Both the position numbers and the translations under genes were made by a program. From Sandaracinobacteroides sayramensis (GTDB lineage Bacteria > Pseudomonadota > Alphaproteobacteria > Sphingomonadales > Sphingomonadaceae), in contig NZ_JAKLSQ010000003.1 in assembly GCF_022014495.1 (NCBI RefSeq), forward strand, positions 1 through 64,000: a stretch of 64,000 bases of DNA. Reading direction: 5' to 3'. Below are positions 3,263 to 26,855 of the stretch, in pieces. The notes below the pieces were generated by a model that saw nothing but the letters and a program-made list of their open reading frames with translations, searched no databases and was not told the origin of the DNA. How positions within the stretch are numbered: position 1 is the stretch's first letter; every line of letters begins with the position of its first letter.

Positions 3263-3311
3263 TGACTCGTTGCAGCGAGACTGAGTGACTCGATCCGGCT
3301 TGGTTGACTCG
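3263..3311 (+). repeat. left transposon end: three TGACTCG repeats
   Basis: TGACTCG occurs at 3263-3269, 3286-3292 and 3305-3311, spaced 23 and 19 bp. The right end has the same spacing in inverted orientation. Such multiple terminal repeats are typical transposase-binding sites of IS21- and Tn7-like elements. Confidence 0.75.
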
Positions 3312-3372
3312 CCTTTCGGGTTTTGCACCTTTCATGCGCGACAAGCGTGAAGCTTCGCGGGAGGTCAGCGGT

Positions 3373-3486
3373 GAGCCGGGGTGGCGCGGAGTTTTCCACA
3401 CAGCGCAGCTCCACCCCGGCTCTGCCCACCGAGTGAAGGGCAGCTCCTTTTTCTTCCCTCCGCGAACTTTTTCTTCCTTCCGCGAA
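3373..3486. repeat. inverted repeat and tandem 20-bp repeat near the left transposon end
   Basis: GAGCCGGGGTGG (3373-3384) pairs with CCACCCCGGCTC (3411-3422) across a 26-nt loop. It is followed by two near-identical 20-nt tandem units beginning CTTTTTCTTCC (3447-3466 and 3467-3486, one mismatch). No gene is evident from 3263 to 3676; this stretch holds the end repeats and these structures. Confidence 0.7.
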
Positions 3487-3676
3487 CTTCGCTGCACAAT
3501 GCAACCCAAGGCAACCCAAGTGCGATGTCCGAGCCGCAACTGGTGTCAGGCCAGATCTCATAGTCCCACGAAAATCGAAAAGAGCGAAGTTGCCCGCTGG
3601 CCGGTTCAATCCATTCGTTGAAATTGATCAATCACGATCTAAACTCACGCGACAACAATAGGCTAGGGGGGAGCTC

Positions 3677-5638
3677 ATGCAGCTCGAAAAAGTCCACGTC
3701 ACCAACTTCAGATCGGTCGATGACAGCCAGGAATTCACGATAGATCCGGTGACGTGTCTCGTAGGGAAGAACGAGGCCGGTAAGAGCGCGATACTCCTAG
3801 CCCTAGCTGCACTAAATCCGCACCCAACGACACCGGCCGTATTCGATAAAGAGCGCGACTATCCGCGAAGGCTGCTCACCCAATACGAGGAGCGTCACGG
3901 GAACAAAGAAGCACTCGCCATCTCGACTAAATGGCGCCTCCAGGCTCGAGACATGGCTAAGATTGAGGCTACCATCGGAAAAGGCGTGATCAAGAATGAT
4001 TTGGTGTCCATCGAGCGCCGCTACGGTATAGAGATTGAGGTCAATGCGCAGCTTAACTTCGCGGCTGGGTTGGCCAACCTGTACGACCGGTTCGCGTTGG
4101 ACGAATCGGAACGTGCTGTTCTCGCCCAGGTAACCAATACATCCGAGTTGATCAGCACTCTCGCAAAACTCTCATCACCGACGGCGCGACATCAGGAACT
4201 CAAGGCGCACATGGCTGCCAACGGCACCATCACGTCCCAGGTTGGCAGTCTGATCAAGTCAATGCTGCCAAAGTTTATGTACTTCTCGTCCTATGATCGC
4301 ATGGATGGCGCAATTCAGTTGGAGCAGACACGTCAGCTAATAGCGAACGGTCAGATCAATACCGAGATGAACCGCGGGGCAAGGCTCTTTTCCGAGTTTC
4401 TCGACTATGCCGGAGTATCGATCGACGAGATAACGAACGTCACCACCTATGAGACGTTCAACGCCCGGCTTCAGGCAGCGTCGAACAACATCACCGACCA
4501 AGTGCTGGAGTATTGGACCCAGAACCCGGACCTCAGCGTCGCGGTTCGCGTGGAGCAGGCGCGCTCGGGAGACCCAGCACCGCTCAACTCCGGCACAATC
4601 GCTTGGGCACGCATTAACAATCACCTTCACCGTGTCGATACGCCGTTCTCGGAGCGCAGCGCAGGCTTCGTCTGGTTTTTCTCGTTCCTCGTGAAATTTG
4701 CGCAGGTGAAAGACGAAGAGACACCAGTCGTATTGTTGCTCGATGAGCCCGGCCTCACTCTGCACGGCAAGGCTCAAGCTGACCTGTTGCGCTTTTTCAA
4801 GGACAAGCTCGCACCGCACCACCAGATCATCTACTCGACCCACTCACCCTTCATGGTTCCCGCAGATGAGTTGGCTTCTGTCCGCATTGTCGAGGATCAG
4901 GTGGAAATGAAGGGCGTGCGGCGTATGCCGCTCGGCACGAAAGTGCGCAGCGATGTACTTACCCGCGACCCTGATACTTTGTTCCCCTTGCAGGGCGCGC
5001 TGGGGTACGAGATCACCCAATCGCTGTTCGTCGGCAAGCATACCATGCTTCTCGAGGGCCCCGGCGATATCCTCTATATCCAAGCACTGTCGGATGCGCT
5101 CAAGCGACGCGGTCGGACAGGTCTCGACACCAGATGGACCCTTTGCCCAGCGGGCGGCATCGACAAGATCCGACCGTTCGTCGCGATGTTTTCGGGCAAT
5201 GCTCTACATATCGCGGTGCTTTCCGACCAGGCTAAGGGCGACAATCGCAAGGTCGACGACCTGAAACGTGCTGAAATCCTGAAGGCTGGCCATTTCTACA
5301 CCATGGCTGATTTCATGGGCCGCCCAGAAGCGGACATCGAGGACATATTCGAGCCGGAATTGTTCGCGGCAATCCTCAACGGGACCTACGGGTTTGACGA
5401 TACGCGCAAGCTGACTGCGGCATCGCTGAAAAAGGCGGGAAACGGCACGGATCGTCTCGTAAAGCAGGCTGAGGCAGCCTTCGCGGTAATGTCCACCGAT
5501 GCCCCCCTATTCGACCACTTTACGCCTGCCGCTTGGCTCATCCGAAACCCCAAAGTGCTCGATCTGAAGACGGGCCCGGTACCAAAGACACTCGATAGGG
5601 CCCAGACAATATTCGATACGTACAACGAGCTGCTCTAG
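3677..5638 (+). CDS. OLD-like ATP-dependent nuclease (AAA ATPase plus TOPRIM)
   Basis: 653 residues. The N-terminal ABC/SMC-type ATPase half has FRSVDD then Walker A GKNEAGKS (residues 30-37), Walker B VVLLLDEPGLTLHGK near residue 355 and a switch-His stretch IIYSTHSPFM. The C-terminal TOPRIM half starts at TMLLEGPGDILYIQAL (Glu near 460) and has VLSDQAKGD further on. This is the overlap-defect (OLD) nuclease layout. No UvrD/GajB-like helicase gene is next to it, so it resembles stand-alone class 1 OLD proteins rather than a Gabija pair. It is the first cargo gene at the left transposon end; upstream GGGGGAGCTC-ATG gives a good ribosome site. Role in phage defence is inferred from the family. 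Confidence 0.85.
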   Translation: MQLEKVHVTNFRSVDDSQEFTIDPVTCLVGKNEAGKSAILLALAALNPHPTTPAVFDKERDYPRRLLTQYEERHGNKEALAISTKWRLQARDMAKIEATIGKGVIKNDLVSIERRYGIEIEVNAQLNFAAGLANLYDRFALDESERAVLAQVTNTSELISTLAKLSSPTARHQELKAHMAANGTITSQVGSLIKSMLPKFMYFSSYDRMDGAIQLEQTRQLIANGQINTEMNRGARLFSEFLDYAGVSIDEITNVTTYETFNARLQAASNNITDQVLEYWTQNPDLSVAVRVEQARSGDPAPLNSGTIAWARINNHLHRVDTPFSERSAGFVWFFSFLVKFAQVKDEETPVVLLLDEPGLTLHGKAQADLLRFFKDKLAPHHQIIYSTHSPFMVPADELASVRIVEDQVEMKGVRRMPLGTKVRSDVLTRDPDTLFPLQGALGYEITQSLFVGKHTMLLEGPGDILYIQALSDALKRRGRTGLDTRWTLCPAGGIDKIRPFVAMFSGNALHIAVLSDQAKGDNRKVDDLKRAEILKAGHFYTMADFMGRPEADIEDIFEPELFAAILNGTYGFDDTRKLTAASLKKAGNGTDRLVKQAEAAFAVMSTDAPLFDHFTPAAWLIRNPKVLDLKTGPVPKTLDRAQTIFDTYNELL

Positions 5639-5669
5639 ATCGCCATCACAAGCGGCTACGGAGGCTACG

Positions 5670-5876
5670 CTACGCTAAGCGCGAAGCGACAAGCTCTTCG
5701 CAAACGTTGGGCTGATCGAAGTAATAAGTGTTCGGGTAGTCCTGAAGAGCGTCAAGATCTTCAATTGACTGCAACTCAATTGTCGCTGTTGCTGCTTCAC
5801 TAGGGGGCTCACCCGCCGGCAAACCGTCCGGTTCGTGGCGCACAAGTAGACGAAATGCGTCGAGCCTAACCGGCAC
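5670..5876 (-). pseudogene. chimeric arsR fragment
   Basis: The first ~22 codons (VRLDAFRLLVRHEPDGLPAGE) match residues 17-37 of the intact ArsR at 21794-22123, with a DNA match over about 60 bp. After that, the DNA-binding helix and metal site are replaced by unrelated sequence (PPSEAATATIELQSI...). The true ArsR start is also missing. It is a recombination scar, not a working repressor. The unrelated C-terminal part may be the tail of another lost gene. Confidence 0.75.
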
Positions 5877-5945: not shown

Positions 5946-6524
5946 TCAGGCAGAAACGGCCAGTTTGCCGCTGCGCCGACGCATCGCGGCGCCCACCAGG
6001 CCGAAGCCCGCGATCATCATCGCCCAGGTGGCGGGCTCGGGCACCACATCCTCGGTGCCGCCACCCGTCTGGTACAGCACCCAGCCCGAACTGCCGTTGG
6101 TGGCGAACGGAATGGTCGTCGTGCCGGCGCCGGCATCGAATTTGTAGAAGGCCGTCACATTGCCCAGCACGCTGCCACCGCCGAAGTGGATGCCGAAGAT
6201 GGTGATCCCCGTCATCAGCGGTGCAGGCGGAGACGTGACATCGGCGCCGTTCAGGCTGTCGATCTTGAAATAGCTGTTGAAATCGAAGCCGGTGACATCG
6301 AAGCCCAGCGCCGCCAGCGCATCCTTCTGCGAATCCACGCCGTTGGCGCTGTTGTTCAGGACATTCTTGTCATAGCCGCCCGAGCACTCGAGGTAGCTGA
6401 AGGGCGCATCGAACACCCCGGCCGTGCCGCAATTGCCGTAGTTCGTCACGACAGCCGCCATGGCGCCGGACGCAGGGAACAGGGCCGCGCATGCAAGCGC
6501 ACCTGCCGTCAGAATATGTTTCAT
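5946..6524 (-). CDS. PEPxxWA-CTERM sorting-signal exported protein
   Basis: 192 residues. The start is placed at ATG 6522-6524, because MKHILTAGALACAALFPASG followed by AMA is a clear Sec signal peptide, while the upstream extension is not. The body is a small secreted domain of unknown function with two Cys near the N-terminus (NYGNCG, YLECSGG). The C-terminus is the PEP-CTERM tripartite signal: VPEPATWAMM, a hydrophobic segment IAGFGLVGAA, then MRRRSGK. The PEPxxWA variant is characteristic of sphingomonads, where an exosortase recognises it. It lies in the transposon but is not an obvious metal gene. Confidence 0.85.
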   Translation of the reverse strand: MKHILTAGALACAALFPASGAMAAVVTNYGNCGTAGVFDAPFSYLECSGGYDKNVLNNSANGVDSQKDALAALGFDVTGFDFNSYFKIDSLNGADVTSPPAPLMTGITIFGIHFGGGSVLGNVTAFYKFDAGAGTTTIPFATNGSSGWVLYQTGGGTEDVVPEPATWAMMIAGFGLVGAAMRRRSGKLAVSA

Positions 6525-6947
6525 GGTTCCAACCCTCAAAACGAAGCCGGCACGGATCCACCCCATATGGATCGCGAACCGCCAAAATCCGTATAAGGGA
6601 AATTCATAAAATGAAAAAGGCGGAATATTATTAATGATCTTTCATTGTTTTCAGGTGGTGAGTATTGCAAAAGGTGGCGTCCAATAGATCCGATTGCCCA
6701 ATCTTAATATTGATTCTCATCTGCACTTAATGGTGCGAACTCTCTAGCTTTGTGGGTGACTAGCAATGCTGCACCAAAGCATGGCTGCAGAATCAAGTCT
6801 GCTGGCAAAAACTGCCTTCCATGCCATGGCGCCACGCAGGCATTGACAACAGTTGTCCGTCTGGCAAATCTCCACGTATGGGGCTTGCGATCTCCCCATG
6901 AGGCTTCGTGCTGAAGTATCGTCTCCTGACCTGACTTGGGGACGCGC
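6525..6947. other. intergenic region without a recognisable gene
   Basis: This 420-bp divergent spacer lies between the PEP-CTERM gene and the chromate genes. It has an AT-richer part (6595-6725) likely to hold promoters for one or both sides. I recognise no coding, RNA or repeat feature in it. Confidence 0.4.
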
Positions 6948-7781
6948 ATGCCTGCACCGAATGCCATATCTGCGGACAAGCTGAAGCGCCTGATCGGCCT
7001 GCCATCAGGGCCGCTGATACTTGATGTGCGCGCGCAACACGACGGACAGCTTCTGCCAGCCTCGGTCGCATGGCCCGAAGGACATGGTCCAAGTCCGCAC
7101 CTTCCGGAGGGGCGTGGCGTCGTGGTCGCCTGCGGGGATGGGCGGGCGCTGAGCCAGAGTATCGCTGCCCTGTTGCGACAGCGGAGTGTGGCGGCCGAAG
7201 TGCTGGAGGGTGGTGTCTCGGCCTGGGCGGCTGAAGGGCTACCGCTGATCCCGTCCAGCCTCTTGCCGCCACGCGATGCCTTGGGCCGTACGCTCTGGGT
7301 CACACGCGCCCGGCCCAAGGTGGACCGTATCGCGTGCCCCTGGCTGATCCGCCGCTTCGTCGATCCGCTGGCGGCCTTCCTGTTTGTGCCTCCCTCCGAT
7401 GTTCCGGCTGTCGCCGTGCGGCTGTCAGCGGAACCGTTCGATATCGAAGGTGTGCGCTGGAGTCATTCGGGTGACAGGTGCAGCTTCGACGCGCTGGTGG
7501 ACGGCCTTGGCCTAGGCGCCTTCGAAGCGCTTGGCCGGCTGGCGGTGGTGGTGCGCGGGGCCGACACCGGGCACCCCGAACTGGTGTCCGAAGCTGCGGG
7601 ACTTCTCGCCGCCTCGCTCGGCCTTTCGCGCATGTTCGACGACGACAATGCGCAGCTCGAAGCGGGCATGCTGCTGTATGACGCCCTCTATCGCTGGAGC
7701 CGCGACGCGACCGGCGAGACCCACAATTGGGACTCGCACCAGCCGGCAAGCGCACGCGGGCGTGGAAAGGCACGACCATGA
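6948..7781 (+). CDS. chrB: rhodanese-ChrB fusion, chromate resistance protein
   Basis: 277 residues. Residues ~1-105 are a rhodanese domain (LILDVRAQHDG, catalytic-loop Cys in VVVACGDGRALS, then EVLEGGVSAWAAEGLPLI). The rest is the ChrB C-terminal domain (WVTRARPKVDRIACPWLIRRFVDP, FDIEGVRWSHSGDRCSFD). ChrB-family proteins sense chromate or support ChrA; the rhodanese part suggests a thiol or sulfane-sulfur role. The ATG at 6948 is chosen over an upstream TTG (6936) because GGGGA sits at proper distance. Its stop overlaps the chrA start (ATGA), so the two are translationally coupled. Confidence 0.88.
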   Translation: MPAPNAISADKLKRLIGLPSGPLILDVRAQHDGQLLPASVAWPEGHGPSPHLPEGRGVVVACGDGRALSQSIAALLRQRSVAAEVLEGGVSAWAAEGLPLIPSSLLPPRDALGRTLWVTRARPKVDRIACPWLIRRFVDPLAAFLFVPPSDVPAVAVRLSAEPFDIEGVRWSHSGDRCSFDALVDGLGLGAFEALGRLAVVVRGADTGHPELVSEAAGLLAASLGLSRMFDDDNAQLEAGMLLYDALYRWSRDATGETHNWDSHQPASARGRGKARP

Positions 7782-8992
7782 ACCGCTCCGCCGAAGTGTC
7801 CGGCTCTGCGATTGACTTCCGTCCGCCCAAGCTGAGCTATCCCGCGCTGTTCTGGCGCTTCCTGAAGTTCGGCGCGATGGCGTTCGGCGGCCCGGTGGCG
7901 CAAATCGCCATGATCCGGCGCGAGTTGGTGGACGAGGAGAAGTGGATCTCCAGCGGCCATTTCAACAGGCTGATTGCGGTGATGCAGGTGCTGCCCGGTC
8001 CGGAGGCGCATGAGCTGTGCGTGCATCTGGGCATTCGGGCAAAAGGTCGTCTCGGCGGCCTGCTGGCGGGGCTGGGCTTCATGCTGCCCGGCCTGTTGCT
8101 GATGCTCGCGCTCGCCTGGGCCTACACGCGCTTTCCCATCGATGGGACGGTGCTGGGCGCCTTGTTCCTTGGGGTGCAGGCAGCGGTCATTGCGCTTATC
8201 GTTCGCGCCGTGCACCGGATCGGCGAGCATGTGCTGGCAGACCGCTGGCTGTGGCTGACGGTGGTGCTGGCGGCTGCCGCATCGCTGGCGGGAGCCAGCT
8301 TCTGGATCGTGCTGTCGGCTGCCGGGATTGCCTATGCCTTCGCCGCCTCTGGCAGGCTGTGGTGGGCGGCGCTGGTGCTGGCACTTGCGGCTGTGGTGGC
8401 GACCGCCCTCCATCTGGGGCCGGCAGGCGCCATTCAGGCAAAAGTCGCCGCCGCATCCCCGACGCCGCTGGCGCTGTTCTGGTCCGGCCTGAAAGGGGGT
8501 CTTCTCACCTTTGGCGGGGCCTACACCGCCATCCCGTTCATCCGCAACGACACGGTGGGACGTGGCTGGATGACCGACGCCCAGTTTCTCGATGGCCTTG
8601 GCCTCTCCGGTATCCTGCCTGCCCCGCTCGTCATCTTCGCCACGTTCGTCGGCTTCATCAGCGGCGGATTGTGGGGCGCGCTTGCCGTCACGGCGGGCAT
8701 GTTCCTGCCGGCGTTCGCCTTCTCACTGTTGTTCTATGAACGGCTGGAGGCCGTTGTGGACGACAGCCGGTTGCAGCATGTCCTGGCAGGCGTCGCGGCC
8801 GGCGTGGTCGGGCTGATCGTGGTCACTCTCATCAGCCTTGCACGTTCGGCGGCCGAGGCGAGCAACAACATCTGGATCAGCCTGGGCATCGCCGCGGCAT
8901 CGCTGCTTCTGCTCTACCACTGGAAGCACAGGCTCGTGCCGCTCGCGGTGGTCGGGCTGGGGGCGTCGGCAGGATTGCTTCTGCTCCGCTAG
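7778..8992 (+). CDS. chrA: chromate efflux transporter ChrA
   Basis: 404 residues of the long, two-domain CHR family. Two homologous halves each contain the CHR signature: FLKFGAMAFGGPVAQIAMI near residue 28 and LKGGLLTFGGAYTAIPFI in the second half, with VLPGPEA and GILPAPLVIF after them. About ten hydrophobic segments indicate an inner-membrane protein that expels chromate. The start at 7778 overlaps the chrB stop, and the residues before it (in frame from 7727) are the chrB 3' end read in another frame. Confidence 0.93.
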   Translation: MNRSAEVSGSAIDFRPPKLSYPALFWRFLKFGAMAFGGPVAQIAMIRRELVDEEKWISSGHFNRLIAVMQVLPGPEAHELCVHLGIRAKGRLGGLLAGLGFMLPGLLLMLALAWAYTRFPIDGTVLGALFLGVQAAVIALIVRAVHRIGEHVLADRWLWLTVVLAAAASLAGASFWIVLSAAGIAYAFAASGRLWWAALVLALAAVVATALHLGPAGAIQAKVAAASPTPLALFWSGLKGGLLTFGGAYTAIPFIRNDTVGRGWMTDAQFLDGLGLSGILPAPLVIFATFVGFISGGLWGALAVTAGMFLPAFAFSLLFYERLEAVVDDSRLQHVLAGVAAGVVGLIVVTLISLARSAAEASNNIWISLGIAAASLLLLYHWKHRLVPLAVVGLGASAGLLLLR

Positions 8993-11068: not shown

Positions 11069-11743
11069 ATGAGGGTGCTTATCGTCGAGGACAATGACCG
11101 ACTGGCAAAGCTGATGGCCGAGGGGCTTCAGCGCCGTGGCTTCTCTTGCGACGTCGCCGGCAATCTCACCGATGCGGACAGCGCTATGGATGGAGCCGCC
11201 TACGACGCGATCATCCTCGATCTTGGCCTGCCGGACGGTGATGGCATCGACTGGCTTGGTGCAAGACGCCGCGCACAACATGTCGCACCGGCGCTCATCG
11301 TGACGGCGCGCGGCGCGCTGGAGGACAGGGTCGCGGGACTCGATGGCGGCGCGGACGATTATGTCGTGAAGCCGATCGAGATCGAGGAACTCGCGGCACG
11401 GGTCCGAGCACTGCTGCGCCGTCCCGGTCCACGAGCGCAGACTGTGATAGAAATAGGGGCGCTAAGTTTCGACACGGCGGCCAGAGCGGCGCGTTACGAA
11501 AACAATGCGATCGACTTGTCCCGCCGTGAAGCCGATCTTCTGGAACTGCTGATGCGGCGCGCGGGCACGGTTGTCCGACGCGGCGCCATCGAGGACGCGC
11601 TCTACAGCTTCAACGAGCCAGTCACGCCTAATGCGGTGGAAGCCGCAATGTCGCGATTGCGACGGAAACTCGACGAAGCTGGGGCGGGCGGCAAGCTGAA
11701 TACGATACGGGGCATAGGCTACATGCTGCGAGAAACGGCATGA
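11069..11743 (+). CDS. OmpR-family response regulator (CzcR/CopR-like)
   Basis: 224 residues. Receiver domain with acidic pocket VEDND, phospho-acceptor Asp51 in IILDLGLPDGDG, Thr in VTARG and Lys in DYVVKPIE, followed by a winged-helix Trans_reg_C domain ending in TIRGIGYMLRE. It overlaps the sensor kinase start by 4 bp and directly precedes the RND efflux operon in the same direction, so metal-responsive control of that operon is the natural reading. Confidence 0.93.
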   Translation: MRVLIVEDNDRLAKLMAEGLQRRGFSCDVAGNLTDADSAMDGAAYDAIILDLGLPDGDGIDWLGARRRAQHVAPALIVTARGALEDRVAGLDGGADDYVVKPIEIEELAARVRALLRRPGPRAQTVIEIGALSFDTAARAARYENNAIDLSRREADLLELLMRRAGTVVRRGAIEDALYSFNEPVTPNAVEAAMSRLRRKLDEAGAGGKLNTIRGIGYMLRETA

Positions 11744-12759: not shown

Positions 12760-12808
12760 ATCTCCTTGCCGTCAGGGAGCCGTCAGTTTGCGCCTCTAGG
12801 CGAAGGGC

Positions 12809-13936: not shown

Positions 13937-13943
13937 TCGGCCA

Positions 13944-17015: not shown

Positions 17016-17307
17016 CCTGCTTCTGACCTTCCATTGCGCGATCCGGGATACGGAGACGATCGTGGAAGCAATCCGCACCGTCGCGCGCGCGCCGATCCAC
17101 GTCCGGGAAGATGCGGTGCGCGGCCGGGATTTCAGCGACGCGCGAACCGCCGAGCAGGTGACGGGCAATCTCCGGCGAAATGCGGTCGAGTTGATCGTCG
17201 CGGACACTATCCAGGACGATGTGATCCGCGCGGTGACGAACTCACGCCACGAGCGCCCGGTGCGTTGGCGCGCCGTATCGGTCGTCAGTTGCGGGAGGAT
17301 CGCATGA
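17008..17307 (+). CDS. DUF3240-like small PII-fold protein of the RND operon
   Basis: 99 residues, start ATG at 17008, overlapping the pump stop by 8 bp and the next start by 4 bp (ATGA), which shows it is part of the operon. The pattern LLLTFHCAIRDTETIVEAI...RNAVELIVADTIQDDVIRAVT resembles the DUF3240 proteins often found in CzcCBA-type operons, which have a PII-like (ferredoxin) fold. A role in sensing metal or modulating the pump is inferred from this association only. Confidence 0.65.
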   Translation: MPDLLLTFHCAIRDTETIVEAIRTVARAPIHVREDAVRGRDFSDARTAEQVTGNLRRNAVELIVADTIQDDVIRAVTNSRHERPVRWRAVSVVSCGRIA

Positions 17308-18548
17308 GACTGACCGCACTGGCTCTGGCCATGCTGCTGATGCTTGCGCCGGGCATGCTGCATGCCCGACGGGCCGACCTACCGCCGGTCGAGAAAGTGA
17401 ATGAAGCACTCGACAACCATCCGACCGTCATGGCCGCCGCCGCACGGGTCGAGGCGGCGCGCGCACGGGGGGACATGCTGCGTAAAGGCGCCCATGAGAC
17501 GACGGTCGCGGGCGGCTATGTTCGCCGCAGCGTCGACCGCGACGGCGGCTATGATGAGTTTGACGCGACCCTGTCCCGTCCGTTCCGTCTTCCCGGCAAG
17601 GCTGCGCTTGACCGCGAATCGGGTTCGGTGGGTATCGAGGTCGCGGAAAACCAGATGGAGGATGCCCGCCATCAGGCGGCGTTGATCCTGTCGGCACTCT
17701 GGCATGATTGGTTGACCGCTGGCAGCCACTATCGCAACGACCTCGACACGGTGCACTCGCTGGAAGCAGCTCTTACCGCCTTGCGTCGTCGCGTCCAGCT
17801 ACGTGACGCCTCGGCGCTCGATCTCGACCAGGCGTCTGCTGCGCTGGCGCAGGTTCAAGCTCAGGCTGCTGCATCGCTCTCTACGCGCGAGCAGGCGCGC
17901 GTGATTCTGGTCGCGACGTTTCCGGAGATACCGCTTCCTCCTGAGCCGGACGAACTCGCCTTGCCCGAACTGCCGACACAGAATCTCGAAACCATGCGGG
18001 CGCTGGTTGTCGAGCGCAGTCACGAGATTCGCGCCGCTGATCGCGAGGCGCAGCGATTGGCCGTCGTTGCGCGGCGGGTTCGGGCAGATCGGATAGCCGA
18101 TCCCTCCTTTGGAGTCCGCTTGTTCAGCGAGCGTAGCGGCATGGAGCGAGGAGCAGGTGTGGTAGCATCCATCCCGTTAGGGGGCGGCTATCGCCGGGCG
18201 GCCACCGATGAGGCTTCGGCCGAGGCGAATGCCGCCCGTCTCGAACTTGCGAATATCCAGCGATCGGTCGCGGCTATCGCCGACGCGGACCTGTCCAATG
18301 CACGCACCCGACTGGAGGCATGGCGAAGCGGGCAGGCATCGGCGCAAAGCGCCGCCGCCGCCGCCGGGAGGATGGAACGCGGCTATCAGCTAGGCCAGAT
18401 CGATCTCGTCGACCTGCTCTATGCCCGTCGCCAGGCGAACGACGCCCGCCGATCCGAGATTGACGCGCGATCGGAAGCGTCGCGGGCGCTACTGAAATTG
18501 CAGATCGATTCCCACAGTATTTGGGTTCCCGATGACGACCAAAATTGA
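17304..18548 (+). CDS. outer-membrane efflux protein (CzcC/TolC-like)
   Basis: 414 residues. Signal peptide MRLTALALAMLLMLAPGM ending near LHA, then long helical repeats rich in Ala, Arg and Glu with duplicated N- and C-halves as in the outer-membrane efflux (OEP) family (EALDNHPTVMAAAARVEAA... and GYQLGQIDLVDLLYARRQANDARR). The start at 17304 has GGAGGATCGC upstream. It completes the three-part export system with the two preceding genes. It lacks the lipoprotein Cys of many CzcC proteins. Confidence 0.88.
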   Translation: MRLTALALAMLLMLAPGMLHARRADLPPVEKVNEALDNHPTVMAAAARVEAARARGDMLRKGAHETTVAGGYVRRSVDRDGGYDEFDATLSRPFRLPGKAALDRESGSVGIEVAENQMEDARHQAALILSALWHDWLTAGSHYRNDLDTVHSLEAALTALRRRVQLRDASALDLDQASAALAQVQAQAAASLSTREQARVILVATFPEIPLPPEPDELALPELPTQNLETMRALVVERSHEIRAADREAQRLAVVARRVRADRIADPSFGVRLFSERSGMERGAGVVASIPLGGGYRRAATDEASAEANAARLELANIQRSVAAIADADLSNARTRLEAWRSGQASAQSAAAAAGRMERGYQLGQIDLVDLLYARRQANDARRSEIDARSEASRALLKLQIDSHSIWVPDDDQN

Positions 18549-18591: not shown

Positions 18592-18790
18592 CCAATTGCG
18601 ATTGTCCATACGGTCGCCTGACGACCTTCGATACTGCTTATACCGCAGTTTGTCAGGAAGTTGGGCTACAACTGATCAGCGCCATGTAGCTTTCACCTCC
18701 ATCTCGGTTTCCTGCGCAGGGTCACTCGGTCCAATCGAGCAGCCACGGTTCGGCAGGAAACAAGTGCGCCTTGTCCGGTAATTCTGACCG
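18592..18790 (-). pseudogene. 3'-end remnant of a paralogue of the 253-residue transposon protein
   Basis: Aligns over ~200 bp with 23020-23222, including the region after the stop (ATTG-GGTTGTCCAT, CTGATCAGCGCC, TTTCCTGCGC-GGGTCACTCGGTCCAATCGAG). Read on the minus strand it ends PDKAHLFPAEPWLLDWTE, against PDKAHLFPSAPGILDWTE in the intact protein. It is diverged, so this is a relic of a related element, not a fresh duplication. The rest of the 18549-19001 gap shows no gene I can recognise. Confidence 0.8.
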
Positions 18791-19001
18791 CCAACATCGG
18801 CCTCCATGGCGCGCTCTCCCATTTTGCGAACGGTATACATAGACTATGGGTGGAAAACAGGTGTTCAACTCACTCATCGGCCAAGGCGGCCGTCGTCGCT
18901 ATTGCGACACCATCCTCCCGAACCCTATCTTCTGTATAGCCGACACAGTTTTAAGCAAGGCTCAGTGGACAAATGGGCCAGATGCCAACCGTCAGTAGCG
19001 G

Positions 19002-19742
19002 CTACGAACGAGCCAATTTCGCGAACTCAACCGGTGTATCCACCGGTTCATTCCTGTCTTTCCTTTCGGAGTAACGATCAACCATCTGGACAGCATGCGG
19101 CCGCAGCAACACTGTGAACCGCACAAGCTCCTCCATCACATCGACGATCCGGTCATAATAGCTGGACGGCTTCATGCGCCCGTTGCCGTCGAACTCATCG
19201 TAGGCCTTGGCGACGCTGGACTGGTTGGGAATGGTGACCATCCGCATCCAGCGGCCGAGGATGCGCAGATTATTGACGCTGTTGAACGACTGCGAACCGG
19301 CATTGACCTGCATGACCGCAAGCGTTCGGCCCTGCGTTGGTCGAACCCCCTTCATAGCAAGCGGCAGATGATCGATTTGCGCCTTCATGATGCCGGTGAT
19401 CTGCCCATGGCGTTCCGGGCTGCACCAAACCTGGCCTTCCGACCAGATCGAATGCTCGCGCAGTTCGTGGACCGCTGGATGATCATCGTAGGCGATGAGA
19501 TCGGGGGGCGGGAGGTCGGATGGATCGAAGATGCGCGTCTCGCAACTAAACAGTTGCAGCAGTCGCGCAGCCTCCTCCACGGCGAGCCGCGAGAACGAAC
19601 GATCCCGCAGCGAGCCGTAGAGTAGCAGGATGCGCGGTGGTGGGTCGAGTTCGCCAAGACCCAGCGCAGGCAGGCGGTGCACATACTCGGGCCTCAGAGC
19701 CGGAAAATGATCGGGGTCCGGAAGTGTACGCAAACGGCTCAT
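19002..19742 (-). CDS. arsH: ArsH, NADPH-dependent FMN reductase for organoarsenicals
   Basis: 246 residues, start ATG 19740-19742, which overlaps the acr3 stop by 4 bp. FMN-binding [20 protein letters not shown] near residue 42 is the flavodoxin-like signature, followed by the ArsH-specific stretch [33 protein letters not shown]. ArsH oxidises trivalent organoarsenicals with NADPH. Last gene of the ars operon. Confidence 0.95.
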
Positions 19743-20818
19743 GCAATATCCTTGGCGGAAAGGCTGGGCGTGGTAGCGGGGAACCATCGGCGGCCCAGCC
19801 AGAAGGCGACGTTCACCAACAGGATCAGCACCGGCACCTCGACAAGCGGGCCGATGACGGCTGCAAAGGCGACCGGCGATGCAAGGCCAAAGGCCGCGAT
19901 GGCAACGGCAATTGCCAGCTCGAAATTGTTGCCGGCTGCTGTGAACGCAACGGCGGACGTGCGGGGATAATCCGCCTCGATCAGTTTCCCCATCCAGAAG
20001 CTGATGAGGAACTGGACAACGAAATAGATGACGAGCGGGATGGCGATGCGGATCGCGTCACCCGGCAGGGTCAGGATATCCTGACCCTTCAGGCTGAACA
20101 TGGCGACGATCGTGAACAGCAGCGCCAGCAGCGTGACGGGGCCGATCTTTGTAAGGAAGCGCTGTTCATACCAGTCGTTGCCCTTGCGTGCGACCAACAC
20201 GCGTCGGGTTAGGAAGCCGGCAGCGAATGGGATGCCGAGATAAATGAGGACCGCCTGTGCAATGGTCCAGAAGCTGATGTCGATGACACTGCCTTCCAGC
20301 CCCAGCAGCGGCGGCAGGAACGCGAGGAAGAACCAGGCGTAAATACTGAAGAAGAGGATCTGGAACAGCGAGTTGAACGCGACCAATGCCGCTACATACT
20401 GGTTATCACCCTTCGCCAGCTGGTTCCAGACAATCACCATCGCGATGCAGCGGGCGAGGCCGATAAGGATCAGCCCGGTCATGTATTCGGGGTGATCGCG
20501 CAGGAAGATGACGGCGAGCGCGAACATCAGCACCGGGCCGATGATCCAGTTTTGGACGAGCGAGATGGCCAGAATGCGCTTGTCGCGGAACACCAGGGGC
20601 AGTTCCTCATAGCGAACCCGGGCGAGAGGCGGATACATCATCAGGATGAGCCCGACGGCGATAGGCAGGTTGGTGGTGCCGATGCTGAAGCTGTCGATCG
20701 TTGCCGGCAGCGCCGGAAACAGCGCGCCAAGGGCGACGCCCGCCGCCATTGCGAGGAAAATCCACAGCGTCAGATAGCGATCGAGGAAGGAGAGACGTGC
20801 GCGGGCAGAACTGCTCAT
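19739..20818 (-). CDS. acr3: arsenite efflux permease, ACR3 family
   Basis: 359 residues, ten hydrophobic segments. Conserved ACR3 features include [43 protein letters not shown] with the essential Cys of helix 4, and [17 protein letters not shown]. It exports arsenite across the inner membrane. Its start overlaps the arsC stop by 4 bp. This is ACR3, not the ArsB/12-helix type. Confidence 0.96.
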
Positions 20819-21258
20819 GGTTGCCCAGGCTCCAAACGATTACCATCGGCGTCGATGACTTGTTCGCCGTCTTCCTTGGTGAACGCGCCCTGCTGTGGCG
20901 CTGGCAGTAGGTCGAGCACTTCCTCTGACGGACGGCACAGCTTCACACCCAATGGCGAGACGACGAGCGGTCGGTTGATGAGGATCGGGTGCGCCATCAT
21001 GGCGTCGATCAGCTGTTTGTCAGTAAGTTCGGGGTTGCCAAGGTTGAGGTCCGCATAGGGTGTCCCCTTCTCCCGCAGCAGGTCGCGGGGCGTAATGCCG
21101 GCCCGCTCGATCAGGCTTTCCAGCAGCGTCCGTGACGGCGGGGTCTTCAGATACTCGATGACATGCGGCTCAATCCCGGCGTTACGGATGAGACCGAGCG
21201 TGTTGCGCGACGTTCCGCACTCGGGGTTGTGATAGACGATGATATCGGTCGCCATCAC
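20815..21258 (-). CDS. arsC: glutaredoxin-dependent arsenate reductase ArsC
   Basis: 147 residues of the ArsC/Spx thioredoxin-like family: catalytic Cys14 in [13 protein letters not shown], then [32 protein letters not shown] with the conserved Arg residues, and the usual C-terminal KEDGE. It reduces arsenate to arsenite using glutathione and glutaredoxin, feeding ACR3. Start overlaps the upstream phosphatase-type reductase gene by 4 bp. Confidence 0.95.
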
Positions 21259-21782
21259 GCAGCACTCACGCGCGGCGAAGACGCGCCCTCAGCCTTTCCG
21301 ATTTCATTTATCTTGGCGTGCAGCGTTGATGCCTGCAGCTTGTCGATCGGCAGGGCCAACAGCAGGCTGATGCGGTTCTCGAGATATCGAAGCGCCGTCG
21401 CGAACGCCTGCACACGCTCTATCTCACTGCCTTCAACTCGTGATGGGTCCTCTATACCCCAATGGGCGGTCATCGGATGGCCCGCCCAGACGGGGCAACT
21501 TTCCCCTGCAGCGTCGTCGCAAACGGTGAAGATGAAATCCATTTTGGGTGCGTCGGGGCCGGAAAACTCGTCCCAGCTCTTCGAGCGCAACCCCTCGGTC
21601 GGATAGTCTAGACCCTTGAGCAGCCGGATCGTTTCGGGATGAACCACTCCTTTGGGAAAACTGCCGGCCGAGAAGGCGCGGAACCGATCGCCCCCGTTTT
21701 TCCGCAAGGCGCTTTCAGCCAGTATGGAACGAGCAGAATTGCCGGTGCACAGAAAGAGAACATTAAACGGCTTATCGGACAT
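21255..21782 (-). CDS. arsenate reductase of the LMW phosphotyrosine phosphatase fold
   Basis: 175 residues. The P-loop CTGNSARS (Cys12, Arg18) near the N-terminus and SAGSFPKGVVHPETIRLLKG, FIFTVCDDAAGESCPVWAG are those of the thioredoxin- or mycothiol-type ArsC class with the second Cys pair. Two distinct reductase folds in one operon give redundant electron sources. Eleven bases separate it from arsR upstream. Confidence 0.92.
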   Translation of the reverse strand: MSDKPFNVLFLCTGNSARSILAESALRKNGGDRFRAFSAGSFPKGVVHPETIRLLKGLDYPTEGLRSKSWDEFSGPDAPKMDFIFTVCDDAAGESCPVWAGHPMTAHWGIEDPSRVEGSEIERVQAFATALRYLENRISLLLALPIDKLQASTLHAKINEIGKAEGASSPRVSAA

Positions 21783-21793
21783 GCTTCACTCCA

Positions 21794-22123
21794 TCAGCAG
21801 CAGGTGAGTTCTGCCAACAGCGGCTCGCAAAGCTCGGGGCGCCCCTGGCAGCAGTCTTTGGCAAGAAACAACATCAGCGCCCGCAAGCCATCGACATCAG
21901 CGCGGTATTGGATGACGCGACTATGCCGTTCGGATGTGACGAGACCGGCTCGCGAAAGAATGGCCAGGTGGGTAGAAAGAGTGTTGGCCGGCACCTGAAG
22001 ATCGCGGGCAATCTCGCCCGCCGGCAAACCGTCAGGCTCGTGGCGCACAAGCAGTCGAAATGCGTCGAGCCTCGTCTCCTGAGAGAGGGCCGCAAGGGCG
22101 TCGAGTGCGTTCTTTGAATCCAT
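21794..22123 (-). CDS. arsR: ArsR family arsenite-responsive repressor
   Basis: 109 residues, winged helix with NTLSTHLAILSRAGLVTSERHSR recognition helix. The metal site is C-terminal: Cys91, Cys92 and Cys99 (KDCCQGRPELC), similar to the Acidithiobacillus-type ArsR rather than the E. coli helix-3 type, plus a terminal Cys pair (108, 109). First gene of the minus-strand ars operon, and it should repress it from the palindrome at 22131-22146. Confidence 0.95.
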   Translation of the reverse strand: MDSKNALDALAALSQETRLDAFRLLVRHEPDGLPAGEIARDLQVPANTLSTHLAILSRAGLVTSERHSRVIQYRADVDGLRALMLFLAKDCCQGRPELCEPLLAELTCC

Positions 22124-22130
22124 AATTCCG

Positions 22131-22146
22131 GATATATCGAAATATC
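22131..22146 (-). promoter_or_regulatory. candidate ArsR operator
   Basis: GATAT-ATCGAA-ATATC, an inverted repeat 8 bp upstream of the arsR start codon, where an autoregulatory operator is expected. The remaining spacer up to 22498 shows no recognisable gene. Confidence 0.5.
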
Positions 22147-22498
22147 AGGGAGGCGCAATAGGCGCCATGCTTTGCCGCTCCACTGCCTGCAAATTGTCGA
22201 CATCCTGCCCAGAGTCAGTCCGCTCTGCCGCTCCGACGCAAATTCGCTGCAATTCGCAACAACTGCCAAGGCAGCTGGACTGATGACATCATAGCATCAG
22301 GCTGCAATAAGACCGTTGCTGCGGCGCACATGGCTGCAGTGGGGCTTGGTAACCCCGACGCGCGACTGAGGCTTGGCCAGGTTCTGGCCGGGTCGCCGTC
22401 GTGCATGTCCAAGGCTTCGCCCAAAGACGGCGGCGCATTCGGACTCAGTCGCGGATGTTACCAAGGCCCGGCTTTCTGGGTCTGGGATATGGCGACGT

Positions 22499-22795
22499 AT
22501 GAAGATCACACTCGGCGGTCGATACACGATAGCGGAATTTGCTGATGTGCTGGCCGAAACGCTCTTCGCGCTTCAGGACAATGGGGTGGAAGAGGTCCAA
22601 GGTGCCAGCCTCTACCTCCAAACCTATTCGGATCGGCGTCAGTTCTTCCTGCTGAACGAAAGTGGCCGGCGCATTGAGCATCTCGATTATGATGGGGCAC
22701 ATGCGCGCACGTATCAGAGTAGATCAGAGCATCTGAACGTTGTGGAGGAGGGGCCCGTTGAGCGCCGCTTCTCGGATCGCCGCGGTGCCAAGTAG
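22499..22795 (+). CDS. hypothetical protein
   Basis: 98 residues starting MKITLGGRYTIAEFADVLAETLFALQDNGVEEVQGASLYLQTYSDRRQ... (shown in part). The frame is open further upstream, but the start at 22499 gives a natural alpha/beta N-terminus. Soluble, ends with a basic RRFSDRRGAK tail. I recognise no family. It may be a transposon-associated protein, as it lies among genes of unknown role next to istA/istB. Confidence 0.6.
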   Translation: MKITLGGRYTIAEFADVLAETLFALQDNGVEEVQGASLYLQTYSDRRQFFLLNESGRRIEHLDYDGAHARTYQSRSEHLNVVEEGPVERRFSDRRGAK

Positions 22796-22801
22796 CAAAT
22801 A

Positions 22802-22999
22802 TTATGAGTCGTCGATCTGGACCGAGTATTTTTTGGTCTCTGGGTTGCGAACGATCTTCGCCTTGTGCCCTGCGGCGCGGATAGCGAGAAACTCCCTGTT
22901 GAGACGCGAGACCTCGTCATATCCTCCGACCTTGTTAAGAAACTTAACGAACTTCGCCTGATCTGATGGCGACACTGGACGAATGCATATCCCTCGCAT
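22802..22999 (-). CDS. hypothetical small protein
   Basis: 65 residues, convergent with the preceding gene (6 bp between stops). Lys-rich, with FVKFLNKVGGYDEVSRLNREFLAIRAAGHKAKIVRNPETKKYSVQIDD (read in part), a helix-beta pattern that looks like a genuine small protein. No family recognised. Confidence 0.5.
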   Translation of the reverse strand: MRGICIRPVSPSDQAKFVKFLNKVGGYDEVSRLNREFLAIRAAGHKAKIVRNPETKKYSVQIDDS

Positions 23000-23150
23000 G
23001 GTCGAAAACCTAGGTCGTCGAATTGCGGTTGTCCATGTGCCCCTCTGGCGAAGCTGAAAAGCAGATTATGTCGTATTTTATCAGACACTCGGCATGCATC
23101 TGATCAGCGCCTAATTGGCCGGCACCTCAATCTCGATTTCCTGCGCCGGG

Positions 23151-23912
23151 TCACTCGGTCCAATCGAGGATCCCGGGTGCAGAGGGAAACAAGTGCGCCT
23201 TGTCCGGCAGTTCCGATCGCCAGGGGAAGAATACATCGAGCTTACGCGTCGAGCGGACAAACAGCCATTGCCTGTAGCGATTGCCGATCGCGTCAAAGAG
23301 ATGACCAAAATTTGTATCGAGCGCCGGTATCTCCGAAATGCGTCGCAAATTGCCAAAGTAGAGATCAATCGCCTTTATGCGCAGGTCATGTGAATTGATC
23401 GTTTGCGAAAGCTCGAGATAGAGGAGCGTCAACTCCAGCAGATCCAGCCCGTCAATTCGCCCGATGGCCGCTACTGCTATGTCGTCGAGCTCGGCGAGTT
23501 CCCAAGCGGGCGCCCAATGCTGCTCGAATAGAATGGGGCGCAGAAGCTCGTGAGCCCAGAGGGCGGCCTCGACATCACCGCGAGTCAATTTTCCTTCCAG
23601 GGCATTCCAGATCGGGCTTCTGAACCAGCGGGCTGTGCCAGCTGCCGCGGCTTCGGCCAGATTGACGGAATTGTCATCATCGTCTCGATCAATCGGGACA
23701 CTCTTGCCCGCTTTGTATTTGTCCCACTTGCGGGGCCGAAACACCCCATCGGGTCCGGCCTTGACCTTGTCTGGTTCCAGGCGGCGCTCCACGGCATAGG
23801 AGGACGAAACTCCCAGCCCCAACTCGACGGAGCGGTACCAAATGCGAGTCCGCAGTCGCCGCACCTCGGCGGTCTTCCGTCGTCCGCGCGCCGGCTTCTC
23901 CCCGGGATTCAT
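23151..23912 (-). CDS. hypothetical protein associated with the transposon
   Basis: 253 residues, start ATG 23910-23912. The N-terminus is basic (RGRRKTAEVRRLRTRIWYRS), followed by a middle region with an acidic DRDDDDNS patch and a helical C-terminal half (ELTLLYLELSQTINSHDLRIKAIDLYFGNL). No catalytic motif recognised. The last ~25 codons and the 3' flank occur again, diverged, at 18592-18790, so it travels with this element type. It is divergent from the small gene at 24001, which suggests the pair plus istA/istB form the element's own module. Confidence 0.65.
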   Translation of the reverse strand: MNPGEKPARGRRKTAEVRRLRTRIWYRSVELGLGVSSSYAVERRLEPDKVKAGPDGVFRPRKWDKYKAGKSVPIDRDDDDNSVNLAEAAAAGTARWFRSPIWNALEGKLTRGDVEAALWAHELLRPILFEQHWAPAWELAELDDIAVAAIGRIDGLDLLELTLLYLELSQTINSHDLRIKAIDLYFGNLRRISEIPALDTNFGHLFDAIGNRYRQWLFVRSTRKLDVFFPWRSELPDKAHLFPSAPGILDWTE

Positions 23913-24000
23913 GGGGTACAGAAAATCAACATTTCGGTTCGGGTTTTAGCGAATCGAAATCCGGGCGCAACCAGGCGCAACCGAGCAGCGGAGAGCGCAC

Positions 24001-24285
24001 ATGACCGAAAGCAAGGCAAACAATCATGCCCACCTCGCCGATACGCATGGCCGACTGCGAGCGGAGTTCCTCGAACTTTATGGTCCGGTCGTAGGCGGAG
24101 CGGATTTGGTGCGGGCGCTCGGCTACAGCAACGCGGCGGCTTTTCGCCAGGCACGTCGTCAGGGCCGCATCAGCCTCAACATATTTACGCTGCCGGCCCG
24201 CCGCGGTTCATTCGCGCTGAGCACGGATGTAGCCGACTGGCTCATCGCCGCCCGCCAAACTGGGAAGGAGAAGGACATGCCATAA
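24001..24285 (+). CDS. small putative DNA-binding protein
   Basis: 94 residues. The stretch GGADLVRALGYSNAAAFRQARRQGRISLN looks like an excisionase or MerR-type winged HTH start, and FALSTDVADWLIAARQ resembles the end of such domains. It lies 140 bp before istA in the same direction and could regulate or assist transposition. Assignment is by pattern only. Confidence 0.55.
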   Translation: MTESKANNHAHLADTHGRLRAEFLELYGPVVGGADLVRALGYSNAAAFRQARRQGRISLNIFTLPARRGSFALSTDVADWLIAARQTGKEKDMP

Positions 24286-24426
24286 AGCTCGACCATTCGC
24301 GGAGTTCATCCGCCAGAAGCCGAACATTTCGAGCTGGAAAATGCGACGGGCTTCGATGCGACAACATCGAAGCCCGGCAACGAAGGTCCAAACCTTACAC
24401 CGACCTTCTCCTCGCATCACCGGCAG

Positions 24427-26025
24427 ATGTCAAGCTGGGACGCTGTCCCGGAATTGGAAGGGCGCGCCCTGGCCGCCCGGAGGAGTAATATCGTGCAATC
24501 GAACCTGAGGGCCGTTCTACGGCAGATTCTTACCACAAACCATTCGCCCAACTTCATCGCCGAACAGAGAGGCATGTCACACAATACCGTGCGTAATTGG
24601 CGCAGGATCCTGGAGGAGAAGGAGATCACCTCCACGCAGCTTGATCTAATGACTGACCAGCAACTGGATAGTTTCATCCGCCGCCGTAGGCCCGCATTGA
24701 GGGGTACAGCGTTGCCAGATTGGGACGACGAGGTTCGGGCCATTCGTTCTGGCCTCAACAGGCTGGAAACCCACGCGATCTACGTGGGTCGGGTAGGTGA
24801 AGATTGTGCGATGGCTTACCGCACGTATTGTGAGCACCTTCGCCTTCACCTGCAAGCACTTGATCCGATATTGCGTCTTGATCATGTCCCAGGCTACGCC
24901 AATCAAACTGACTATGCAGGCTATATGCCGGAGGGTCGAGAAAACGGCGGGCACGAGCGCCGAAAATTTAAGCTCTTCGTTGCAGCCCTACCGTTTTCGC
25001 GGCTGATTGCCGCCGCGATCGTTCGCAGCGAAACCGTCGGCGACCATATCGAAGGCAATCAGCGAGCGTTGCACTATTATGGTGGCGTGCCGGCCATCCT
25101 GGTTCCCGACAATCTGAAAGCGGCGGTGATCTCAAGGCCCAAGTACGGGCCGCCGAGGCTGCAGGAACAATACCAGGCCTTTGCTGACCACTATGGTGCT
25201 GCAGTGGTACCGGCACGTCCCGGCCGACCGCAGGACAAATCGGCAGTCGAGAATTCCGTTAAGTTGGTGCAGCGGCTGCTCGGTATTCGCCTATCCCAGC
25301 GGCCGCTGCTCGAAATCGACGAGATGCAGCGCGTGCTCGACGACATCGTGGAGCAGTTGAACAATCGGCCGATGAGGCGCGCGAACGGACATTCGCGTCG
25401 GTCATTGTTTGAGGCTGAAGAACGGATGCACCTGAAACCGCTCCCCGCACAGCGGTTCGAACTGCGTGAGCCGACGGTCTCCCGCAAGATCGCGAAGGAC
25501 TATCACGTCGAGTACAAATCCAACTACTATTCCGTCCCGCATCGGCTTGTCGGCCAAAACGCAGACGTGCGGGCTACCGGGAGCCTCGTCGAGCTGTTTG
25601 TTGATGGGCTCTCGGTTGCCGTCCACACGAGAGCCTATTCGCTTAACTGCAGGATCACGAACGACCAACATCGGCCACCAAGCCACTCCTTTGCCTCCCA
25701 GACAGACCTCATGGAATGGGCAAAACGCTACACGGCCGACGTCGAAAAGCTGGCCGAAGTTGAAGTCATGCGGACCGAACTTCCTGAGATCCAGCGGCGC
25801 CAGCGCATTGCATGGATACAGAACCTGCCGAGAATCCACGGACGGCAAAGATTCGAGCAAGCCTGCCGGCGGGCTAACAGCTTCCAGGACCTTAGGTTCG
25901 ATCACGTCCGCAACGCGCTCGACAAAGGCATTGAGTCCTCGATGCCGGAGCCTTTGGCCCAGGCGGCGCCGCCAAAGCCTCAGCGGAACGTTCGGGGCGC
26001 TCGCTACTTTGGCAAGAAGGGGTAA
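24427..26025 (+). CDS. istA: IS21-family-like transposase IstA
   Basis: 532 residues. N-terminal HTH (SPNFIAEQRGMSHNTVRNWRRIL), then an integrase catalytic core with DDE residues Asp162 (NQTDYAGY), Asp228 (LVPDNLKAAV) and Glu275 (DKSAVENSVKLVQRLLG), and a C-terminal beta-barrel with YYSVPHRLVG and RKIAKDYHVEY. This is the IstA layout. It ends 4 bp before istB. It is longer at its N-terminus than most IstA proteins, and the exact start is not certain. Confidence 0.92.
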   Translation: MSSWDAVPELEGRALAARRSNIVQSNLRAVLRQILTTNHSPNFIAEQRGMSHNTVRNWRRILEEKEITSTQLDLMTDQQLDSFIRRRRPALRGTALPDWDDEVRAIRSGLNRLETHAIYVGRVGEDCAMAYRTYCEHLRLHLQALDPILRLDHVPGYANQTDYAGYMPEGRENGGHERRKFKLFVAALPFSRLIAAAIVRSETVGDHIEGNQRALHYYGGVPAILVPDNLKAAVISRPKYGPPRLQEQYQAFADHYGAAVVPARPGRPQDKSAVENSVKLVQRLLGIRLSQRPLLEIDEMQRVLDDIVEQLNNRPMRRANGHSRRSLFEAEERMHLKPLPAQRFELREPTVSRKIAKDYHVEYKSNYYSVPHRLVGQNADVRATGSLVELFVDGLSVAVHTRAYSLNCRITNDQHRPPSHSFASQTDLMEWAKRYTADVEKLAEVEVMRTELPEIQRRQRIAWIQNLPRIHGRQRFEQACRRANSFQDLRFDHVRNALDKGIESSMPEPLAQAAPPKPQRNVRGARYFGKKG

Positions 26026-26029
26026 GGCG

Positions 26030-26749
26030 ATGTACAGCACAAGAGAGCGACTTGTGTCGCTACACCTCGCAGGCATGGTGAAAGCCTTTGATCAGCAGTT
26101 GGGCTCATCCGCGTTTTCGGCGATGCCGTTCGAGGAACGGCTCGACCATCTTGCCGCTATGGAGGAGCACGAACGCGACCATCGGACACGTCGACGGCTT
26201 CTGCGGCAAGCCAAGTTCAAGATTGTGGCTGACCCGCGTGAGATCAACTTCGAGGCCCAACGCGGCCTTGATCGCGCCTATGTAGCGGAATTGCTGACCT
26301 GCGGGTGGATCCGACGCTGCGACAACGTACTGATCACCGGCCCGGCCGGCTCCGGGAAGTCATTTCTCGGTTCCGCATTCGGGGCGGCAGCGATAGATTG
26401 CGGCCTGTCGGTTCGCTACGTTCGCACCAATCCGATTCTCGAACAGATGGCGCTGGCGCACATCGATGGCTCGATCAGCAAGCTGCGCCATTCCCTGATC
26501 TCAGCATCGTTGTTGATCTTGGACGATTTTGGGATCGCGCCGATCACCCTCCGCGCCAAGGAGGATTTACTCGAACTGTTAGAAGGCAGGATAGACGCAG
26601 GATCGACCATTGTTATGGGTCAGCTGGCCCCTGAGGAGTGGCACGACTATCTCGACGCGCCGCACCTTGCCGACGCCATCATTGATCGGCTCTTTCAACG
26701 GTCACACCGTTTTGCACTGAAAGGCACATCAATGCGAATGCGGCTGTGA
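26030..26749 (+). CDS. istB: IS21-family-like transposition ATPase IstB
   Basis: 239 residues; start ATG 26030 preceded by GGGGTAAGGCG. AAA+ ATPase related to DnaC: Walker A GPAGSGKSFLG, Walker B SLLILDDFGIAP, and the family N-terminus RERLVSLHLAGMVKAFDQQL. It would form an oligomer that bends target DNA and activates IstA. Immediately followed by a hairpin and the right transposon end. Confidence 0.95.
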   Translation: MYSTRERLVSLHLAGMVKAFDQQLGSSAFSAMPFEERLDHLAAMEEHERDHRTRRRLLRQAKFKIVADPREINFEAQRGLDRAYVAELLTCGWIRRCDNVLITGPAGSGKSFLGSAFGAAAIDCGLSVRYVRTNPILEQMALAHIDGSISKLRHSLISASLLILDDFGIAPITLRAKEDLLELLEGRIDAGSTIVMGQLAPEEWHDYLDAPHLADAIIDRLFQRSHRFALKGTSMRMRL

Positions 26750-26756
26750 TTGCGGG

Positions 26757-26797
26757 GCAGACCTGCTGCGGCGGCACTGCCGCCACGGCAGGTCTGC
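26757..26797 (+). terminator. hairpin after istB
   Basis: GCAGACCTGC (26757-26766) pairs with GCAGGTCTGC (26788-26797), with an inner GGCGGCA/TGCCGCC pair. It can form a strong hairpin downstream of istB. No T-run, so a terminator or a transposon end structure are both possible. Confidence 0.55.
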
Positions 26798-26806
26798 TCG
26801 CAACGC

Positions 26807-26855
26807 TAAGTCAGCAACGCCACGTCGAGTCTCGATACCGCGCAACATGGAGTCA
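26807..26855 (-). repeat. right transposon end: three TGACTC-like repeats
   Basis: Reading inward on the minus strand: TGACTCC at 26855, AGACTCG at 26832 and TGACTTA at 26813. The spacing (23 and 19 bp) equals that of the left end at 3263, 3286 and 3305, in inverted orientation. Confidence 0.75.

Follow-up and report, generated by a model that had tools for sequence, protein, structure and literature searches.

A probable unit transposon with an IS21-family transposition module and metal-resistance cargo in Sandaracinobacteroides sayramensis

The window analysed here is a stretch of 64,000 nucleotides from Sandaracinobacteroides sayramensis (assembly GCF_022014495.1, contig NZ_JAKLSQ010000003.1, positions 1 to 64,000). 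Positions 3245-26873 of this window (23,629 bp) very probably constitute a unit transposon with an IS21-family transposition module, in which about 21 kb of cargo sits between the left end and the transposase gene istA. An earlier interpretation made without database searches, here called the sequence-only reading, had proposed one large IS21-like element with cargo at 3263-26855; the element itself is borne out by the closure of the interrupted gene mzaE, by a site in a congener and by arrays and 7-bp duplications in relatives, whereas its ends had to be moved outwards by about 18 bp. The sequence shows where the element begins and ends, that its inverted arrays match, that the target gene on its two sides can be rejoined in frame, that the right end occupies a second site, and that relatives have the same layout with perfect 7-bp duplications. 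The IS21 family itself is known; the data support as new an IS21-family unit transposon with long cargo. Features of the window are listed in Table 1.

The transposition module is assigned to the IS21 family on the basis of IstA, IstB and repeated inverted end sites. With Pfam models the IstA of the window scored 67 for Mu-transpos_C_2 (cut-off 27) and 30.2 for rve, which is below the cut-off of 32.6. istB begins 5 bp after istA. The window holds a single istA and a single istB, all other tblastn matches having E values of 0.27 or worse, and the whole genome gave one istAB match. As the sequence-only reading had stated, these are the only transposition genes recognised inside the element; no other transposase or integrase was recognised among the open reading frames (ORFs) searched, several of which have no family match. 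With its size and cargo the element lies outside the strict definition of an IS21 insertion sequence (transposition genes only, about 2-2.7 kb), and there are no IS copies on both sides as in a composite transposon.

The end arrays are beyond chance. Both ends carry three TGACTC-type repeats in inverted orientation at the same spacing of 0/+23/+42, counted from 3263 on the plus strand and from 26855 on the minus strand; this earlier observation was reproduced, with two mismatches in 18 positions, both in the right array. When both strands of the window were scanned with the right-end hexamers, the left end ranked first among all other places with 2 mismatches, and the next best had 6. First-order Markov resamplings of the window (n=40) gave a best value of 3, so that 0/40 reached 2 mismatches. 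A motif-blind check, in which the 250 bp behind istB were compared in inverted orientation and without gaps, 50 nt at a time, with the preceding 26.7 kb, ranked the left end first (position 3261, 31/50; next 29), and the earlier judgement that the arrangement is improbable by chance was thereby upheld. Among eight whole genomes, the pattern with at most 2 mismatches was found twice in the window genome (G000), once in the congener (G001) and in none of the others, while a backward control of the pattern gave one match, in G022.

The termini are placed about 18 bp outside the first repeats because homology with the congener stops at 26873 and three left ends in a more distant relative (G1041) start 18 nt outside; 3263 and 26855 are ruled out as termini by the same observations. 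The whole unit very probably inserted in one event: deletion of 3240-26874 (23,635 bp) fuses the halves of mzaE in frame to 697 codons with the sole stop at the end (696 residues), and the ten residues at the junction are the same count as in the homolog L030. A metal-resistance unit has broken a phage-defence operon in mzaE. PADLOC recognised the MzaE parts followed by MzaD, MzaC and MzaB, reaching 32479. The region 26875-34526 comprises this Mza-type operon MzaB-MzaE, then a cytosine-methyltransferase gene that matches the DrmMII and type II methylase models. CTGGC on either side of the element is a probable, not a proven, target duplication. A judgement from the repeat alone was rejected: a 60 x 60 grid covering the two ends contains eight repeats of at least 5 bp, including one of 6 bp, and short repeats are common by chance there. 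The case for insertion rests on the reading frame and the outside boundary.

The outside boundary comes from the congener Sandaracinobacteroides hominis (L002; G001), in which window positions 21771-26873 are matched at 99.96% and 19618-21296 at 100% identity. The homology ends exactly at 26873, beside a broken gene other than mzaE, whose open frame resembles a TonB-dependent receptor (named by eye, no family search). On its left side the copy stops inside arsH and adjoins S30AE-like and Clp-like genes; it has presumably lost its left part. It was rejected as a copy with another left end because of this break and because, of the two arrays, the 52 kb examined contain the right one alone. A 61-residue IstA remnant in the same genome (G001:C8, 48% identity) is short and without ends and was discarded as an element. 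The congener copy, nearly identical elsewhere, lacks the 474 bp at window positions 21297-21770, with a CTT at the junction.

Searches with IstA covered 98, 385, 397, 346, 114 and 248 genomes (overlapping sets, the last with the IstA of G1041 as query). Besides the window genome and the congener, a near-full-length IstA at about 49% identity was found in two genomes only, both of another genus (G878 and G1041). PLSDB contains 4,938 records that match IstA, the best 40 places listed having 32-34% identity. In a tree of 22 rows, 21 of them different, the four IstAs form one clade with a support of 100/100 and a long stem, the place of which among the other branches is left open by the tree.

In G878 a triple array at 0/23/42 (two mismatches) lies 14.6 kb before istA, the 18 outer nt of the left end resemble the right end of the window, and a perfect 7-bp duplication, GCTTCGC, flanks a unit of 16,992 bp. 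When this unit is removed, an open frame resembling a MarR regulator (named by eye) is restored. Among the cargo genes of G878 are those for a DEAD helicase and for an N6/N4-type methylase and ResIII helicase, a pair of type III restriction-like character. The G878 element is a fossil, because its IstA has two stops.

The istA of G1041 is open. Its copies were read at contig ends, with the interior unassembled. Three identical left ends with three different flanks all begin with TAGCGG, 18 nt outside their first repeat. Two of the three were paired with right ends via the perfect 7-bp repeats CCTTTCA and ACTGAAG, and removal of the CCTTTCA copy restores a dehydrogenase-like frame (named by eye). 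No right-end partner was found for the third. The homologous array far upstream of istA in relatives with a 49% identical IstA supports the sequence-only reading of one large element. The elements are best read as a lineage of IS21-family unit transposons with the order left end, cargo, istA-istB, right end. Contigs C5-C7 of G1041, two of which (C5 and C6) have an end sequence in common, were considered as transposon cargo, but this could not be shown. The short contig C5 (L114) carries a CBASS-like set (DncV-like nucleotidyltransferase, ThiF/E2, patatin) and a Tle1-like protein, with no link to the transposon shown.

Recognisable inverted ends were present in 17 of 33 more distant IS21 loci (those reaching 34/50 in the inverted 50-nt test), all 1.8-2.7 kb apart and several with equal repeat spacing at both ends; in the remaining loci the ends did not exceed background or the locus was too short. 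L070 (50/50, 2.6 kb) was left uncounted, with identical arms at a contig end, L044, L049 and L058 (the last examined only in the wrong orientation) were too short to test, and L098 is not among the 33. Because ordinary IS21 relatives carry equally spaced repeats, the arrays are usual for IS21 and the cargo load is unusual; equal spacing at both ends is also an ordinary IS21 trait in the published description (PMC10122671; for this and the other papers cited, statements refer to the passages drawn on). The equally spaced array emphasised by the sequence-only reading is therefore real without being novel, the novelty being the 21 kb between left end and istA. Remote left ends in ten further IS21 loci with 16-20 kb upstream, one of them (L074) without downstream sequence, did not rise above background in the 50-nt test (best 33/50), which would overlook weak arrays like those of the window. 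On the Sphingopyxis macrogoltabida plasmid NZ_CP012701 (L062), an ordinary 2.6-kb IS21 directly adjoins resolvase and heavy-metal ATPase genes, which lie outside its ends.

The Xanthomonas hydrangeae plasmid LR990732 (L098:14781-20833) carries a probable IS21-type unit of about 6 kb from another IS21 branch (IstA 33%, IstB 47%). Like the window element it has arrays towards both ends (here CTGGAC) and ORFs before istA. Three ORFs, one of them YopJ-family acetyltransferase-like, are annotated between the left array and istA, and the 7-bp repeat CCTTGAG stands outside both arrays. The inverted match of 32/50 is near background, and about 0.1 chance 7-bp repeats are expected in the searched grid (author's estimate). 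This unit is a hint, on weaker evidence, that IS21 cargo loading happened more than once. We lean slightly towards the broader view that a Sphingomonadales IS21 lineage, with GACTC arrays at 0/23/42, mostly TA termini and 7-bp duplications, transports metal-resistance or restriction-type genes in loads of 14-21 kb and that a separate Xanthomonas branch did likewise with a 6-kb unit. On this view IS21 would have given rise to cargo carriers repeatedly, as the Tn7 and Tn402 lines have done.

Composite origins are common. Two IS21 copies could once have flanked the cargo, the left copy having shrunk to its outer end, which would explain a left end without adjoining genes; such a remnant would now move as a single element and differs from the reading preferred here in origin more than in action. 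It is improbable, since tblastn of the window detected no istA/istB remnant between the left end and istA, and because G878 and G1041 share a homologous left end, any such origin is older than the split of these lineages. It is very unlikely that the module is a short IS21 beside unrelated resistance genes with coincidental left repeats, although the IS21 relatives with recognisable ends are short: the best site within 23701-24480, just upstream of istA, has 8 mismatches of 18, the left array sits exactly where mzaE is broken, the resamplings produced nothing as good, and G878 has the same layout. The sequence-only reading had named two findings that would count against it, a short IS with a left end just upstream of 24427 and the cargo without these ends. 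Neither was encountered for this istA lineage; the genomes searched yielded no short IS with this istA, and there is no left array near 24427. Single capture, in which the transposase misread a chance end-like sequence as in IS1380-family transposable modules, has precedents in ISPme1 and ISEcp1 (PMC9330008) and is barely credible here, as the left end, all three of whose repeats are perfect, surpasses the right one, and G878 and G1041 have a homologous left end with 18 outer nt. Just as little credit is given to delivery of the block by another agent (integrase, homologous recombination) with istAB as passenger: recombination has acted on this DNA, as the break inside arsH in the congener demonstrates, but no integrase or further transposase was recognised among the ORFs searched (some without match), and the arrays and duplications in the relatives fit an istAB-type insertion.

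For the unit transposon, IstA and IstB presumably recognise the arrays, suffice for transposition and move the whole unit. At both ends the repeated GACTC sites would be bound by IstA, which would then pair the ends; cleavage would occur about 18 nt outside the first site, and IstA with IstB would insert the whole unit into the target, leaving a short duplication (7 bp in the relatives). One transposase pair would in this way carry about 21 kb of chromate, Czc-type and arsenic resistance together with an OLD-like gene. The chemistry of this proposal is taken from studied IS21 elements. Movement of the unit by IstA/IstB has indirect support in the three G1041 left ends at three sites.

Several points weigh against a unit transposon of this type. 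Its movement is deduced, none having been observed. The termini do not show the TG..CA described for IS21: the ends are mostly TA (5/7 ends listed, one of the seven duplicating the right end of the window), with TG at the left ends of the window and of G878. At the right ends of G878 and G1041 the first repeat is followed by a weaker one at +23, and a third is not clearly present, which leaves two clear right-end sites in G1041 and one to two in G878. Perfect 7-bp target duplications occur in G878 and in two G1041 copies, whereas that of the window has only 5 bp, is one base out of register with 26873 and is of a length common by chance near the ends. The congener copy is without a left end, and G878, the only complete relative with known cargo, has a decayed istA.

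Tn7-like and Tn402/Tn5053 transposons combine a DDE transposase and an AAA+ ATPase with repeated end sites and cargo inside, as does the window element; it differs from them in that no tnsABD or tniQ-like gene was recognised and its proteins fit IS21 models. IstA has been likened to Tn7 (PMC10122671). Studied IS21 elements have ends of two or more repeats, which IstA pairs, and IstB is needed for correct duplications, those of IS5376 being 5 bp (PMC10122671, PMC11208146). The window element shares with IS21 and IS5376 the order istA-istB, an IstA and IstB above curated cut-offs, ends with repeated sites and short duplications, the latter probable in the window itself (PMC10122671, PMC11208146). 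It departs from them in that some 21 kb of cargo separates istA from the left end, most termini are TA, and the duplications in relatives are 7 bp long versus 5 bp in IS5376. With transporter IS (tIS) and IS1380-type transposable modules it has in common IS machinery with passenger genes, but the families named for these in the cited passage omit IS21 (PMC9330008), and here the left end is homologous between elements, unlike a chance capture. No precedent for a published IS21 unit transposon with cargo was found in the open-licence PMC literature.

IstA/IstB serve as a structural model for AAA+ ATPase-assisted transposition, usually thought to move about 2.5 kb (PMC11208146, PMC10122671). With natural units of 17-24 kb whose ends, duplications and empty-site frames are defined, the handling of long cargo by IstB-dependent transposition would become testable. 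As an annotation rule, a GACTC array at 0/23/42, 18 nt from the terminus, would find resistance or restriction islands that at present pass for a single IS next to other genes.

Table 1. Features of the element and its flanks (window positions)
Feature	Position	Strand	Remarks
AIPR/mzaE C-terminal part (left flank)	1701-3239	-	Pfam AIPR 1e-102; PADLOC MzaE; joins right part in frame
CTGGC, left copy of probable target duplication	3240-3244		5 bp; 5/7 if counted as the relatives' 7 bp
Left end	3245-3310	+	18 outer nt, then TGACTC at 3263, 3286, 3305 (0 mismatches)
OLD-like AAA ATPase	3677-5638	+	Pfam AAA_15 5e-21; PADLOC Old 4.3e-24, best of 108 families
PEP-CTERM motif protein	5946-6566	-	
Chromate module	6875-8992	+	chrB-a RNA, ChrB, chromate efflux transporter
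chrB-a RNA	6875-6950		Rfam RF03078
ChrB	6936-7781		ChrB_C
Chromate efflux transporter	7727-8992		TIGR00937 328.4 bits, cut-off 171.7
Czc/Cus-type module	11069-18548	+	Response regulator, sensor kinase, RND adaptor, CusA/CzcA pump, TolC-like protein
Arsenic module	19002-22123	-	ArsH, ACR3, ArsC, low-molecular-weight phosphatase-type reductase, ArsR/SmtB regulator
85%-identical block shared with G878	22363-22474	+	Upstream of small ORF; cargo module rather than transposon core
istA	24427-26025	+	532 aa, IS21-family DDE transposase; NCBIfam transpos_IS21 (NF033546) 192.5 bits, cut-off 160
istB	26030-26749	+	239 aa, IS21 helper ATPase; NCBIfam IS21_help_AAA (NF038214) 207.5 bits, cut-off 200
Right end	26808-26873	-	18 outer nt ending 26873; then inward TGACTC, AGACTC, TGACTT
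CTGGC, right copy of probable target duplication	26875-26879		One base outside 26873
AIPR/mzaE N-terminal part (right flank)	26875-27426	-	Pfam AIPR_N 2.1e-40; PADLOC MzaE 1.1e-06

Within the cargo, the CusA/CzcA pump scored 1006.8 bits with TIGR00914 (cut-off 701.45), and the TolC-like protein scored below its own cut-off. For parts of the Czc and arsenic modules, the 20 listed of 72 plasmid records contain sequences of about 74-79% identity, none covering 80% of the query; both modules are ordinary passengers. The 253-aa ORF at 23151-23912 was dismissed as a core transposon gene, with no counterpart in the G878 stretch or the searched G1041 stretches. The block 22363-22474 is doubtful as a core site, as it also occurs on a plasmid beside a methylase/helicase pair. 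This block of about 110 bp (L101:16549-16662; L122:20001-20135) is 85% identical in G878 and 80% on the Erythrobacteraceae plasmid, and adjoins a methylase/helicase pair in both. Its fold is more stable than that of shuffled sequences (z -3.5 and -2.2), no Rfam family reached the gathering threshold, and it is possibly a structured RNA or an operator. Direct repeats in the cargo (18638-18793 and 23066-23222 with 72-85% identity; 5808-5867 and 22013-22072 with 92%, overlapping arsR) may be traces of its assembly.

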